This document shows positions 55,949 to 61,794 of a stretch of 64,000 nucleotides of DNA, piece by piece. Each line of letters starts with the position of its first letter. Position 1 is the stretch's first letter. Origin of the DNA: Rathayibacter sp. VKM Ac-2804. GTDB lineage: Bacteria > Actinomycetota > Actinomycetes > Actinomycetales > Microbacteriaceae. Location of the stretch: the NCBI RefSeq assembly GCF_009866655.1, contig NZ_CP047420.1, forward strand, positions 2,108,001 to 2,172,000, in the 5' to 3' direction. Both the position numbers and the translations under genes were made by a program. The notes below the pieces were generated by a model. That model made no database searches, was not told where the DNA came from, and was given only the letters and a program-made list of their open reading frames with translations.

Positions 55949-57223
<1,275 letters not shown>

Positions 57224-57227
57224 ACCG

Positions 57228-58493
57228 GTGATCCGCTACGCACCGGCGGTCCTCCTCGGGAGGGCCGCCCGGTTCGCAGCGCGCGTCCGCAAGCCCGGCG
57301 GAGGCTCCGCCGTGCCCGGACTCGTCGTGAACCGCCTCGCGCCGGGCTTCCTCCCGGCCGTGCTCGACGGCTTCACCGACGGCCTCGTCGTCGTCACCGG
57401 CTCGGCCGGGAAGTCGACGACGACCAAGATGCTGGTCGCCGTCCTGCGCGCCCACGGGCTGCGCGTCTTCACCAACCCCTCGACCGCGAACATCGCGCAG
57501 GGGCTCACCTCGGCGCTGCTCGAGCGCGCCGACCTCCGCGGGCGGATCGACGCGGACATCGCCGTCCTCGAGATGGACGAGGGCCACGGAGCTCGCCTGG
57601 CGCCCCGGATGAGCCCGCGCGTCGTACTGCTCACCAACGTCGTCGTCGACCAGATCGACCGCTTCTTCGACCCGGCCATGGTCGCGCGGATGCTGGCCAC
57701 CATCGCGAGCCGCGCCACGGGCCCGGTGGTCCTCAACGCCGACGACCGCCACGTCGCCGACGTCGCCGTCTCCCTCCCGGTGGACCGGGTCCGCTGGTAC
57801 GGCGTCTCCCCGTCCGTGCGCGAGGCCGCCGTCGGCGGACTCGGCTACGCGGCCGACGCCGAGGGCCCGGACGGGCGCGCCACCACCGTCGTCGAGACGA
57901 CCAGCGGAGCCGCTGCGACGATCAGCAGCGACGGCGACGTCCTCGACGTCCGCCTCCCCGCGCGCGGCGTGCACTACGCGGTCGACGCCGCCTCGGCGGT
58001 CTCCGCCGCCCGCGCCGTGCTCGGCACCCGCTTCGACGCGCACACGACCGCCTCCGCGCTCTCCTCGATCGACCCTGTCTTCGGGCGCGGCGAGATCGTG
58101 ACGGTCCGCGGCCAGGAGGTCGAGTTCGTCCTGGTGCAGAACCCGGCGAGCTACCGCCTGAACATCGCGGAGATCCCCGAGGGCACGGAGCAGATCATGC
58201 TCGCCATCGGCTCGGACGTCCGCGATCCGTCCTACTTCTGGCCGGTCGACACCGCCCGCCTCGGGCGGGTCCGCGTCGTCTCCGGCTCGAAGGCGCACGA
58301 GGCCGCGCTGCAGCTGCGCTACGACGGAGTCGCGATCGACGCCGTCGACGACGACCTCGGCCGGGCGCTCGACACCTTCCTCGCGCTGCCGGCTCCGAGC
58401 CACGGGCGGAAGACGATCGTCTTCTCCGCCGACTCGATGCGGCGCACCCGCGCCCACCTCCAGCTCGCCTCCAACCGCGAGGAGACCGCGTGA
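57228..58493 (+). CDS. murT: MurT-like Mur ligase (lipid II isoglutaminyl synthase subunit), cysteine-free
   Basis: A 421-residue Mur ligase. P-loop GSAGKSTTTK, then NPSTANIAQGLTSALL, the LEMDEGHG acid region, TNVVVDQIDRF, and the C-terminal DUF1727 domain (QNPASYRLNIAEIPEGTEQIMLAIGSDV). In MurT/GatD this enzyme uses ATP to activate the D-Glu alpha-carboxyl of lipid II and amidates it with ammonia from GatD. Oddity: the protein contains no cysteine, so the family's four-cysteine zinc ribbon is absent, and the WD motif that contacts GatD (DVSWxWD) reads DPSYFWPVD. The GTG at 57228 sits 4 bp after sigA, and gatD overlaps its stop (GTGA). The fold call is firm; the reaction is uncertain. Confidence 0.88.
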   Translation: MIRYAPAVLLGRAARFAARVRKPGGGSAVPGLVVNRLAPGFLPAVLDGFTDGLVVVTGSAGKSTTTKMLVAVLRAHGLRVFTNPSTANIAQGLTSALLERADLRGRIDADIAVLEMDEGHGARLAPRMSPRVVLLTNVVVDQIDRFFDPAMVARMLATIASRATGPVVLNADDRHVADVAVSLPVDRVRWYGVSPSVREAAVGGLGYAADAEGPDGRATTVVETTSGAAATISSDGDVLDVRLPARGVHYAVDAASAVSAARAVLGTRFDAHTTASALSSIDPVFGRGEIVTVRGQEVEFVLVQNPASYRLNIAEIPEGTEQIMLAIGSDVRDPSYFWPVDTARLGRVRVVSGSKAHEAALQLRYDGVAIDAVDDDLGRALDTFLALPAPSHGRKTIVFSADSMRRTRAHLQLASNREETA

Positions 58494-59212
58494 CCACCCT
58501 GCTGATCGGCGTGCTCGCCCCCGACGTCCTGGACAGCAACGGCGACGCGGCCAACGCGCGCGTCCTCGCCGCGCGCGCCGGGTGGGCGGGCCTGGACGTC
58601 CGTGTGGTCCCGCTCATCGGGCAGGACGACTTCTCCGACCGCCCGGACGTGCTGGTGGCCGGCACGGGAGCGGACGAGGATCTGCCCGCCGTGCTCGAGC
58701 TCCTGCGCTCCGTGCGCGAGACGATCCACCGCTGGGTGGCGGAGGGTACCGAGGTCGTCGCGGTCGGAGCGGGGTGGGAGCTGCTCGCCGAGTCGTTCGC
58801 GACGCCGAGCGCCGTCGTCGAGGGCATCGGGGTCTTCCCGGGCCGCGCGGTGGCGACCGAGCGCACCACGGACGATCTGGTCGTCGAGTCGAGCGCAGGT
58901 GTCCTCGTCGGCTTCGAGAACCATGCGCGGCGCTTCGAGGGCATCGATCGCTCGCGCGTCCTCGGGCTCGTGCTGCACGGGTCGGGCGACGGCGGGGGAG
59001 CGGAGGGCTACTCGCACGGCTCTCTGCTCGGCACCCACCTGCACGGTCCGGTGCTGGCGAAGAACCCCGCCCTCGCGGACGCGATCCTGAGCCGGGTGGC
59101 CGGGCGGCACGGCCTGGTCTACTCGACGCGGGACGAGCGGATCCGACTGGCGGACGAGACAGCTCGAGCCGCCCGCGAAGTGATCGCGAAGCGGCTCGGA
59201 GTCGGCCGGTAG
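58490..59212 (+). CDS. gatD: GatD-like class I amidotransferase, catalytic cysteine lost
   Basis: A 240-residue protein of the GatD/CobQ-like amidotransferase family, partner of MurT. The usual nucleophile motif (ICGGYQxLG) reads VGAGWELLA, so Cys is replaced by Gly; the nearby GGGxDREQ is GTGADEDL. The protein has no cysteine at all. The His of the old triad remains (GTHLHGPVLAKNP), as do GFENH and the overall fold. It therefore should not hydrolyse glutamine. The GTG start overlaps the murT stop, so the two are translationally coupled. Not truncated (family length about 240). It may be a structural subunit of a redirected ligase; see the finding. Confidence 0.9.
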   Translation: MTTLLIGVLAPDVLDSNGDAANARVLAARAGWAGLDVRVVPLIGQDDFSDRPDVLVAGTGADEDLPAVLELLRSVRETIHRWVAEGTEVVAVGAGWELLAESFATPSAVVEGIGVFPGRAVATERTTDDLVVESSAGVLVGFENHARRFEGIDRSRVLGLVLHGSGDGGGAEGYSHGSLLGTHLHGPVLAKNPALADAILSRVAGRHGLVYSTRDERIRLADETARAAREVIAKRLGVGR

Positions 59213-59249: not shown

Positions 59250-59483
59250 CTAGGGGCGCTGCTCCTCGAAGAGGCGCGCCGACTCGTCGTGCCAGCTCTG
59301 GGCGATGCTGGAGAGCTTCTCCTGGTACTTCTTGCCGTGGTGCGCGCAGAACAGAAGCTCTCCGCTGTTCACGACGACACGGATGTAGGCCTGGGCTCCG
59401 CAGCTGTCGCAGCGGTCTGCCGCGGAGAGCTGCTGCGATCCAGCGAGCTCGTCCACGCCGTTCTGGGTTGCTGTGGTCGACAT
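59250..59483 (-). CDS. DUF7455-type small zinc protein
   Basis: A 77-residue protein. CDSCGAQAYIRV and CAHHGKKYQEKL supply a CxxC plus CxxH zinc site typical of the actinobacterial DUF7455 family. The ATG at 59483 (MSTTATQNGVDELAG) was chosen because family conservation begins near it; an ATG 81 bp upstream would add a basic, unrelated stretch. It is divergent from parE. Function unknown, but the gene often lies next to topoisomerase genes in Actinobacteria. Confidence 0.85.
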   Translation of the reverse strand: MSTTATQNGVDELAGSQQLSAADRCDSCGAQAYIRVVVNSGELLFCAHHGKKYQEKLSSIAQSWHDESARLFEEQRP

Positions 59484-59712
59484 GACGTGGCCTCCTGCGC
59501 TCGGGTCTTCGACTTCGGTGGACTCGGCCTCTCGGCTCCGTCCTTCCCTTGGTCCAACCATCAAAGCACGCGGATGTTTCCCGGCAGAGTCGATCCCGTG
59601 GCATTTCGCTCTGCGCGTAGGTCCTCGGGATCACTTCCCAGGCGGATCCGGGTGCGGCAGCGGTCCGGGGCGCCTCGGCGGGGGTGTCGGCCCTCGAACC
59701 TAGACTGAACGG

Positions 59713-61794
59713 ATGGCCTCCACCGACTACTCCGCACGGCACCTCTCCGTCCTCGAGGGCCTCGAGGCGGTGCGCAAGCGCCCCGGCATGTACATCGGCT
59801 CCACGGACTCCCGCGGCCTGATGCACTGCCTCTGGGAGGTCATCGACAACTCGGTCGACGAGGCCCTCGCCGGGCACGGCACCGAGATCAGCGTGGTGCT
59901 GCACAAGGACGACAGCGTGGAGGTCCGCGACCGCGCCCGCGGCATCCCGGTCGACATCGAGCCCAAGACGGGGCTCACCGGCGTCGAGGTCGTCTTCACC
60001 AAGCTGCACGCCGGCGGCAAGTTCGGCTCCGGCTCGTACGCCGCCTCCGGGGGACTGCACGGCGTGGGCGCGTCCGTGGTGAACGCGCTGTCCGAGCGGC
60101 TCGACGTCGAGGTCGACCGCGACGGCCGCACCTACCGGATGTCCTTCCACCGCGGCGAGCCCGGCCGCTTCGCGGACTCGGGCGAGCCGACCCCGGACGC
60201 CCCGTTCTCGCCGTTCGAGAACGGCTCCGAGCTGGAGATCGTCGGCAAGGTGAAGAAGGGCGTCACCGGGACGCGGGTCCGCTACTGGGCCGACCGGCAG
60301 ATCTTCACGAAGGGCGCCGCCTTCCAGACCGACGACCTCGTCACCCGCGCCCGGCAGACCGCCTTCCTGGTGCCGGGGCTCACGATCGACATCGTCGACG
60401 ACCGCGAGGAGGAGCGCCGCGCCGAGATGTTCCGCTACGACGGCGGCATCTCGGAGTTCGTCGAGTTCCTCGCTCCGGACGCGGCGGTCACCGACGTGCT
60501 GCGGCTCTCCGGCAGCGGCACCTTCACCGAGACCGTGCCGGTGCTCACCCCCGGCGGCGCGATGGTGCCGACCGAGGTCGAGCGGACCTGCGAGGTCGAC
60601 ATCGCGCTGCGCTGGGGCACCGGCTACGAGACCGTGCTGCGCAGCTTCGTCAACATCATCTCGACACCCAAGGGCGGCACGCACCAGACCGGCTTCGAGC
60701 AGGGCCTCCTGAAGCTCCTCCGCGCCCAGGTCGAGGCGAACGCCCGGAAGCTCAAGGCGGGCTCCGACAAGCTGGAGAAGGACGACGCTCTCGCGGGGCT
60801 CACCGCGGTGCTGACCGTGCGCCTGCCCGAGCCGCAGTTCGAGGGACAGACGAAGGAGATCCTCGGCACGCCGGCCGTCCGCGCGATCGTCGCGCAGACG
60901 ATCACCTCGACCCTCGGCGCCGTGTTCGCCTCGACGAAGCGCGAGGACAAGGCGCAGATGTCGCAGCTGCTCGAGAAGCTCGTCGCCGAGATGAAGTCCC
61001 GGATCTCGGCCCGCGCGCACAAGGAGACGCAGCGGCGGAAGAACGCGCTCGAGTCCTCGTCCCTGCCGGCCAAGCTCGTCGACTGCCGCAGCAACGACGT
61101 CGAGAACAGCGAGCTCTTCATCGTCGAGGGCGACTCGGCGCTGGGCACCGCGAAGCTGGCCCGCAACAGCGAGTACCAGGCGCTGCTGCCGATCCGCGGC
61201 AAGATCCTCAACGTGCAGAAGGCGAGCATCGCCGACATGCTCTCGAACACCGAGTGCGCCTCGATGATCCAGGTGATCGGGGCGGGGTCGGGCCGCTCCT
61301 TCGAGCTGCCCGCCGCGCGCTACGGGAAGATCATCCTGATGAGCGACGCCGACGTCGACGGCGCGCACATCCGCACGCTGCTGCTCACCCTGTTCTTCCG
61401 CTACATGCGGCCGCTGGTCGAGGCCGGCCGGGTGTTCGCCGCAGTCCCGCCGCTGCACCGGGTCGTGGTGATGAACTCGGGCAGGAAGCCGAACGAGACG
61501 ATCTACACCTACTCCGAGAAGGAGCTGCAGGGCGTCCTCGCCGGGCTGTCGAAGGCGAACCGGCGCTACCAGGACCCGATCCAGCGCTACAAGGGCCTCG
61601 GCGAGATGGACGCCGACCAGCTCGCGCTGACCACGATGGACCGCTCGCGGCGGACGCTGCGCCGGGTGAAGGTCTCGGACGCCGAGAACGCGGGCCGGGT
61701 CTTCGAGCTGCTGATGGGCAACGAGGTGGCGCCGCGCAAGGAGTTCATCGTCCGCGGCTCCGAGACGCTCTCGCGCGACCGCATCGACGTCTGA
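59713..61794 (+). CDS. parE: DNA topoisomerase IV / gyrase-type subunit B
   Basis: A 693-residue type IIA topoisomerase ATPase subunit. GHKL ATPase motifs: EVIDNSVDEALAG (Mg-binding Asn) and GGLHGVGASVVNALS. The Toprim domain includes EGDSALGTAKLARN and MSDADVDGAHI. The C-terminal end SDAENAGRVFELLMGNEVAPRKEFI is canonical. It lacks the insert and length of GyrB, so ParE is preferred. TAGACT (59701-59706) is 6 nt before the ATG; leaderless. It pairs tail to tail with parC. The true gyrase genes are not in this window and presumably lie near oriC. Confidence 0.92.
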   Translation: MASTDYSARHLSVLEGLEAVRKRPGMYIGSTDSRGLMHCLWEVIDNSVDEALAGHGTEISVVLHKDDSVEVRDRARGIPVDIEPKTGLTGVEVVFTKLHAGGKFGSGSYAASGGLHGVGASVVNALSERLDVEVDRDGRTYRMSFHRGEPGRFADSGEPTPDAPFSPFENGSELEIVGKVKKGVTGTRVRYWADRQIFTKGAAFQTDDLVTRARQTAFLVPGLTIDIVDDREEERRAEMFRYDGGISEFVEFLAPDAAVTDVLRLSGSGTFTETVPVLTPGGAMVPTEVERTCEVDIALRWGTGYETVLRSFVNIISTPKGGTHQTGFEQGLLKLLRAQVEANARKLKAGSDKLEKDDALAGLTAVLTVRLPEPQFEGQTKEILGTPAVRAIVAQTITSTLGAVFASTKREDKAQMSQLLEKLVAEMKSRISARAHKETQRRKNALESSSLPAKLVDCRSNDVENSELFIVEGDSALGTAKLARNSEYQALLPIRGKILNVQKASIADMLSNTECASMIQVIGAGSGRSFELPAARYGKIILMSDADVDGAHIRTLLLTLFFRYMRPLVEAGRVFAAVPPLHRVVVMNSGRKPNETIYTYSEKELQGVLAGLSKANRRYQDPIQRYKGLGEMDADQLALTTMDRSRRTLRRVKVSDAENAGRVFELLMGNEVAPRKEFIVRGSETLSRDRIDV

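Follow-up and report, generated by a model that had tools for sequence, protein, structure and literature searches.

The stretch of 64,000 nucleotides analysed here, termed the window, comes from Rathayibacter sp. VKM Ac-2804 (assembly GCF_009866655.1, contig NZ_CP047420.1, positions 2,108,001 to 2,172,000 of the forward strand) and carries a gene pair related to MurT/GatD, an enzyme whose usual reaction is the amidation of the wall precursor. Both proteins are devoid of cysteine (Cys), and such Cys-less forms of MurT and GatD are designated MurT* and GatD*. The pair is considered here for its possible part in group B peptidoglycan, a taxonomic marker for decades that is cross-linked through the alpha-carboxyl of D-Glu, which carries the bridge. 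In window coordinates, the pair and its motifs are the following.

57228..58493, + strand: MurT* ligase subunit, 421 aa, no Cys, GTG start (open reading frame and family profiles)
57396..57419, + strand: MurT* P-loop TGSAGKST (motif counts, conserved columns)
58215..58250, + strand: DVRDPSYFWPVD, MurT* loop with the triad Asp, lacking three residues relative to MurTs paired with Cys-bearing GatD (alignment)
58490..59212, + strand: GatD* subunit, 240 aa, no Cys, GTG start, glutaminase nucleophile lost (open reading frame, profiles, alignment)
58763..58786, + strand: VGAGWELL, with G93 where the catalytic Cys is expected (alignment with Staphylococcus aureus GatD, column count)
59030..59050, + strand: GTHLHGP, catalytic His retained in the window GatD* (column count)

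At the nucleophile site the window GatD* reads AVGAGWELL (G93) where the aligned S. aureus GatD reads ICGGYQFLG. The absence of Cys from both proteins and the glycine (Gly) at the nucleophile, first described in a sequence-only reading of the window, were confirmed by the open reading frames and by this alignment. The triad partners of the lost Cys are retained, namely the GatD His of GTHLHGP and MurT D333, and the MurT site for adenosine triphosphate (ATP) is present both as the P-loop and as LEMDEG (Glu108 region). In alignments of 27 MurT* that include the window's, G58, S59, G61, K62 and T64 of the P-loop were invariant, and so were E115, D117 and E118 as well as D333 and S335 of DVRDPSYFWPVD. 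The reading frames of MurT* and GatD* overlap in GTGA.

The nearest known system is the lipid II isoglutaminyl synthase MurT/GatD (S. aureus 6GS2, 6H5E and 7Q8E; 6FQB, which we take to be the S. pneumoniae MurT/GatD; 9SQ9), with which the pair shares by sequence the Mur ligase middle domain, the C-terminal MurT domain and the GatD family. S. pneumoniae and S. aureus MurT are the solved structures nearest to MurT* in sequence; the GatD profile reached 6GS2 at 180.8 bits and the MurT profile 6FQB at 157.1 bits. In Pfam, the window pair matched Mur_ligase_M (47.3 bits) and GATase_3 (52.9 bits), and MurT_C was marginal in MurT* (24.3 bits for a cut-off of 25; 27.5 bits in the genome scan). Unlike the synthase, MurT*/GatD* has no nucleophilic Cys, carries a three-residue deletion in the loop that holds the triad Asp and is proposed to bind the stem, lies at a different locus and scores low as an equivalog, the NCBIfam cut-offs being missed by far (86.6 of 800 bits for MurT*, 87 of 450 bits for GatD*); the His is variable among its relatives. 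MurT* also fails the MurE-type model TIGR01085 (18.7 of 257.3 bits). The zinc ribbon of four Cys (Cys4), found in a subset only of MurTs, is absent from the window MurT* as the sequence-only reading had stated, but the absence is uninformative as evidence because 43 of the 46 MurT partners of Cys-bearing GatDs also lack the Cys4 pattern in a count that used a simple pattern.

The host genome is a single contig of 4.09 Mb with one match to MurT_C, eight to Mur_ligase_M and three to GATase_3, and the remaining two GATase_3 proteins resemble PdxT and HisH, their sequences being judged by eye. By these matches the genome holds one MurT and one GatD, and a profile search of it for a second, Cys-containing MurT/GatD, which the earlier reading had named as a counter-indication, found none. 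The window locus is 92-94% identical in DNA to two other Rathayibacter loci (L180, L181) over 5.6-6.2 kb.

The loss of the GatD Cys extends well beyond this strain. A GatD profile search matched 92 of 120 Microbacteriaceae genomes, and outside the family 33 of the 90 matching genomes were aligned. Among the 223 rows of the GatD alignment, 46 have the nucleophilic Cys and 177 (167 distinct sequences) do not, the replacing residue being Gly in 140, Ala in 22, His in six, Ser in five, Asn in two, Thr in one and Arg in one. The catalytic His is found in all 46 Cys-bearing rows and in 108 of the 177 Cys-less ones, and is replaced in the other 69. Cys-less rows come exclusively from Microbacteriaceae, either from the genome set or from pattern-scan loci, with a single exception in another family (L149). 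In the Microbacteriaceae genome set 14 rows have the Cys and 83 lack it, and outside the family 32 of 33 GatDs are Cys-bearing, L149 being the exception. A MurT* profile gave 19 matches at an E-value (E) <= 1e-110 in 394 genomes of the class, 12 in Microbacteriaceae at >= 546 bits and seven outside at <= 391 bits. A pattern scan of named genomes with the MurT* motif as query returned at least 120 stretches and at least 90 usable GatDs, all Cys-less among the matches listed, as the design on that motif favours; they belong to Rathayibacter, Agromyces, Curtobacterium, Clavibacter, Leifsonia, Herbiconiux, Frigoribacterium, Subtercola, Plantibacter, Cryobacterium, Mycetocola and others. Judged from the alignments, the loss is neither chance nor private to the window strain and is widespread in Microbacteriaceae. 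Separately, a very diverged Cys-less pair adjoins sigA in a 0.9-Mb genome (L103, G015); a second MurT*/GatD* lies away from sigA by a gene that looks ClpC-like by eye in a genome that is 77% complete with 6% contamination (L343, G113); and the MurT of L149/L381 has zinc-ribbon-like cysteines, with neighbouring genes that resemble polysaccharide synthesis.

The MurT partner is remodelled together with the GatD site. The loop that in S. aureus bears the DNAAD motif together with the triad Asp is shorter by three residues in 169 of the 171 MurTs paired with Cys-less GatD (aligned segment of 16 residues) and in none of the 46 paired with Cys-bearing GatD (19 residues in all 46); the two exceptions among the 171 have a longer loop. 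The P-loop and the DE motif persist despite the deletion. In S. aureus MurT, a contact of the DNAAD motif with the stem-peptide lysine (Lys) is proposed in passages of PMC6113224. No DNAAD-type stem-binding segment was found in the window MurT*, which has the three-residue deletion. Median within-genus ratios of nonsynonymous to synonymous substitution rates (dN/dS) were 0.08-0.22 for MurT* and 0.14-0.28 for GatD* in seven genera, and 0.04-0.19 for parE in six, GatD* being under weaker constraint than MurT* in 7/7 genera. Such low values indicate purifying selection and hence a maintained pair; the sequence-only reading had concluded from the P-loop, the DUF1727 domain, the GatD His and the GTGA overlap that the pair is not decaying.

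The pair occupies a slot with constant borders, which are found in the window together with a further small reading frame.

55949..57223, + strand: sigA, gene of the principal sigma factor, which borders the slot on the left (open reading frame; its C-terminal motif stands beside Cys-less pairs across Microbacteriaceae)
59250..59564, - strand: small open reading frame with Cys-x-x-Cys, between GatD* and parE
59713..61794, + strand: parE-like gene for a topoisomerase subunit, which borders the slot on the right (open reading frame)

Cys-less pairs lie between sigA and parE in 81 of the 83 rows of the Microbacteriaceae genome set. In 76 of these a border falls within the sequence retrieved, whereas L013, L070 and L107 were placed by coordinates, L067 by its twin L166 and L042 by a longer fetch (L344); the two rows without a border are L018 and L113. 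For the pattern-scan rows, a sigA or parE border is visible in 89 of 90 among the matches listed. None of the 14 Cys-bearing pairs of Microbacteriaceae has sigA or parE in view, and in 12 genomes that, as far as searched, have Cys-bearing pairs only, 63-762 bases separate the motifs of sigA and parE, with no pair in that interval. Other occupants were also seen. In L116-L120 and L287, a MurT/GatD of a type called class III adjoins sigA, its nucleophile site reading THNALEVLG (THNAAEVLG in L116, THNALEVFG in L117), and the MurT of L287 has a CPVC...C motif similar to that of a zinc ribbon. An ATP-grasp gene is found with MurT* in G018 and follows the class III pairs of L287, L119 and L120. In L295 and L311 (genus g49), apparent amino-acid ATP-binding cassette (ABC) transporter genes lie between sigA and parE, and the sought ligase kinds were not found there.

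Some genomes have a different kind of ligase in this position. In the set of 120, 28 genomes gave no GatD match; 27 of them were inspected at sigA and 14 have a CofE-like ligase in the slot, which in the others contains diverged genes of the MurT type or an ABC transporter, or is empty. The CofE-like gene (PF01996, 50.2 bits for a cut-off of 25, one protein tested) is mostly found with an ATP-grasp gene (PF14397, 152.9 bits) and sometimes with an alanine-racemase-like gene (PF01168, 172.3 bits) or EctB. This ligase, which is not the window's gene, shares its Pfam family with the coenzyme F420-0:gamma-glutamyl ligase CofE; a role as F420 enzyme was rejected on the failed cofE equivalog model (34.9 of 180.65 bits), and the CofE-like profile had no match among solved structures at E <= 0.01. 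Genes of the CofE-like, ATP-grasp, racemase-like and EctB kinds replace MurT*/GatD* after sigA in L285, L291, L297, L348 and others. In G053, a cluster of divergent MurT-, GatD- and CofE-like genes lies away from sigA (L342:7607-10402, - strand), and two racemase-like genes are inside its sigA-parE interval (L284).

In 299 Microbacteriaceae genomes at >= 90% completeness, a strong CofE-like gene (E < 1e-100) was present in 46, a gene of the MurT family (E <= 1e-20, counting canonical and class III forms) in 243 and both in none, counts in which misses are possible as only the best first-look candidates were scored. The overlap of 0/46 has a hypergeometric probability of 1e-44, uncorrected for phylogeny, and three weak CofE-like matches do co-occur with MurT-family genes. 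In 13 of 18 CofE genera the two kinds occur in different species, and for seven of those 13 (g7, g9, g48, g76, g79, g80, g85) the MurT gene was seen in the slot; 34 CofE genomes were inspected, with sigA in view in 33 and ATP-grasp in 30. Where viewed, the CofE-like gene and the MurT-family gene alternate at the same slot. Such a site could be a mere integration hotspot whose cassettes are unrelated accessory genes, some of them envelope-linked, as the ABC transporter of genus g49 and the empty slots of some genomes would allow. This explanation is improbable given the absence of MurT-family genes from all 46 genomes with strong CofE, the alternation within 13 genera and the purifying selection on MurT* and GatD*.

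Wall chemistry offers a further, weaker correlation. Agromyces, Leifsonia, Herbiconiux and Plantibacter have diaminobutyrate (DAB) in the wall, Curtobacterium D-ornithine (Orn) and Mycetocola Lys. Passages of the taxonomic literature give DAB for Glaciihabitans, Cryobacterium and Compostimonas, D-Lys for Frigoribacterium, Orn for Frondihabitans and both Lys and Orn for Salinibacterium (PMC7033078); DAB of type B2gamma for Subtercola and D-Orn for Frondihabitans (PMC5945732); DAB for Clavibacter (PMC9190974); Orn and DAB for Humibacter (PMC6346192); D-Orn, L-Lys or DAB for Microbacterium (PMC10757982); and a B-type wall with Gly, Thr, DAB and gamma-aminobutyric acid (GABA) for Leucobacter (PMC4511665). 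Humibacter, having both amino acids, was excluded from the labels. The MurT* tree places the genera labelled DAB in subclades I and IIb and those labelled Lys or Orn in the third subclade, so that the chemistry needs one change over 33 tips, or over 91 tips with a wider label set that goes beyond these papers. On a parE tree the same labels need one change (literature labels, 17 shared tips) or two (wider label set, 33 tips). The claim that chemistry tracks MurT* rather than the organism was therefore not retained, the organism phylogeny doing nearly as well, and the residues that separate the Orn/Lys subclade from the DAB subclades may be lineage marks. An opposition of clade I to clade II as DAB to Gly was also dropped, as DAB genera occur in both.

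Genes for making and racemizing a diamino acid are found in some of these slots. EctB is part of the slot cassette of six genomes: G020, G559 and G584 (g21), G057 (g57), and G360 and G702 (g85). It is the diaminobutyrate--2-oxoglutarate transaminase by model TIGR02407, which the two cassette copies tested pass (556.4 and 594.7 bits for a cut-off of 552.2, the latter from G360). Cassette EctBs, which adjoin ligase genes after sigA, are 67-76% identical to the G020 copy, and other EctB-like copies of g85 only 49-57%; in that genus an EctB-like match at E <= 1e-100 was found in 16 of 198 genomes, two of which have it following sigA. In G360 the order is sigA-EctB-MurT*-GatD*-racemase-like-parE (L344), and its MurT* groups in a DAB subclade, apart from the two other g85 sequences in the tree. 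Its congener G702 has sigA-EctB-CofE-ATP-grasp and G057 has sigA-CofE-racemase-like-EctB-ATP-grasp. Three Leifsonia species (L. aquatica, L. virtsii and L. shinshuensis) likewise have a racemase-like gene in the slot with MurT*, and such genes accompany MurT* outside Leifsonia as well. EctB was rejected as a marker of DAB walls at the level of whole genomes: at E <= 1e-60 it was not found in three Rathayibacter, the window's included, and was present in 23 of 120 family genomes.

What MurT* may do is best approached from a GatD mutant. In passages of PMC3266927, S. aureus C94G GatD has lost glutamine use, keeps ammonia-dependent MurT activity and is still required. As the same substitution leaves ammonia-dependent amidation, MurT* should still be able to produce the acyl phosphate and to accept an amine from outside, GatD* acting as scaffold, and the co-location of DAB-synthesis and racemase-like genes in some genomes together with the replacement by other amide ligases points to an amino acid as donor, most likely the bridge diamino acid. 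We therefore favour, at a probability of roughly 0.6, MurT*/GatD* as an ATP-dependent amino-acid ligase of peptidoglycan precursor synthesis that acts on the D-Glu alpha-carboxyl with a structural GatD*. MurT* would, judging by its kept motifs, convert this carboxyl of a lipid- or uridine diphosphate (UDP)-linked stem peptide into an acyl phosphate in the manner of MurT, and a free amino acid rather than GatD-derived ammonia would attack it. The donor would most likely be the diamino acid of the group B bridge. For Rathayibacter, and for subclades I and IIb, this would be D-DAB; for the third subclade, D-Orn or D-Lys. GatD*, its glutaminase lost, would serve as structural partner of MurT*. The reaction, donor, acceptor (lipid II or UDP precursor) and stereochemistry we infer from features that can be read off the genomes, namely the loss of the glutaminase site, the remodelled loop, purifying selection, a fixed locus, the exclusion of CofE and some co-location with DAB and racemase-like genes. 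The repurposed ligase put forward in the sequence-only reading gains from this context, that is, from a conserved and selected pair with a remodelled loop, its replacement by amide-ligase genes and one DAB-aminotransferase/racemase-like neighbourhood, and its structural GatD is plausible from the C94G data (passages of PMC3266927).

The same mutant could suggest that MurT* simply makes D-isoglutamine from free ammonia with GatD* as structural partner, as C94G GatD/MurT does at pH 8.5 and as the retained ATP site and GatD scaffold residues would permit, but in the same study ammonia was not used at neutral pH (PMC3266927). This activity would leave the EctB and racemase-like genes in the slot and the CofE-like exclusion unexplained. 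As the alpha-carboxyl carries the bridge in group B walls, we regard ammonia-dependent amidation as unlikely. Slightly less likely still is a glycine ligase: MurT*/GatD* would join Gly to the alpha-carboxyl of D-Glu, a step described for Micrococcus wall synthesis, and the diamino acid would come from another enzyme. The chemistry would be the same and some group B walls do have Gly in the bridge, but MurT* is present in genera with a single-diamino-acid bridge, its subclades sort by diamino acid (weakly so against phylogeny), and EctB adjoins it in G360.

The window's genome also holds two additional MurE-like ligases, at the following positions.

L132:8856-10400, - strand: extra MurE-like ligase, window's genome (TIGR01085, 368 bits)
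L133:9378-10892, + strand: extra MurE-like ligase, window's genome (TIGR01085, 338 bits)

Both exceed the cut-off of 257.3 bits, and a MurE paralogue might thus be the bridge ligase, leaving to MurT*/GatD* another envelope role. However, 119 of 120 family genomes match, three copies occur only in the Rathayibacter (3/3), four other genomes have two rows and 112 have one. As a general bridge ligase the paralogue was therefore rejected, and among the explanations weighed this one has the least to recommend it.

Returning to the amino-acid ligase, several observations weigh against it. As far as searched, 12 Microbacteriaceae genomes carry a Cys-bearing pair only and two (G054, G066) carry both kinds of pair, and 10 of the 299 genomes have neither a strong CofE-like nor a MurT-family gene; if Cys-bearing-only or no-ligase genomes have group B walls, another enzyme acts there and the scheme is incomplete. 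L149 (with L381; G406, another family of the order) is a Cys-less GatD with Arg at the nucleophile. With these cases, the one-to-one link between Cys loss and group B walls that the sequence-only reading had raised is not supported. The 90 Cys-less GatDs of the pattern scan, which was built on the MurT* motif, are uninformative on how frequent Cys-bearing forms are, and the slot also accepts other genes, such as the amino-acid ABC transporter of L295 and L311. EctB is directly beside MurT* in only one genome viewed and was not found in the window's genome at E <= 1e-60, so that the DAB source of this strain is not explained. The DAB label of Rathayibacter comes from a reference title on DAB isomers in its wall (PMC7143919). 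Finally, with one or two changes on the parE tree against one on that of MurT*, the chemistry correlation is supportive but weak.

A broader scheme, held tentatively and at slightly less than even odds, would see the sigA-parE interval of Microbacteriaceae as a swappable bridge island with interchangeable ligase modules and travelling EctB and racemase-like genes. Its modules (MurT*/GatD*, class III MurT/GatD, and CofE-like with ATP-grasp) would attach bridge amino acids to the D-Glu alpha-carboxyl, and in some islands the racemase-like gene and EctB would supply D- and L-diaminobutyrate. A full-text search of open-licence papers found, among the matches listed, none that assigns genes to the group B bridge. 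MurT*, a Mur ligase whose glutaminase partner is dead, is a concrete candidate for such a gene. If the assignment is true, it would provide an example of an amidotransferase turning into an amino-acid ligase, the swapping of unrelated modules at a single site would allow wall chemistry to be predicted from genome sequences, and module exchange would account for the patchiness of the diamino-acid wall types on which the taxonomy of Microbacteriaceae draws.

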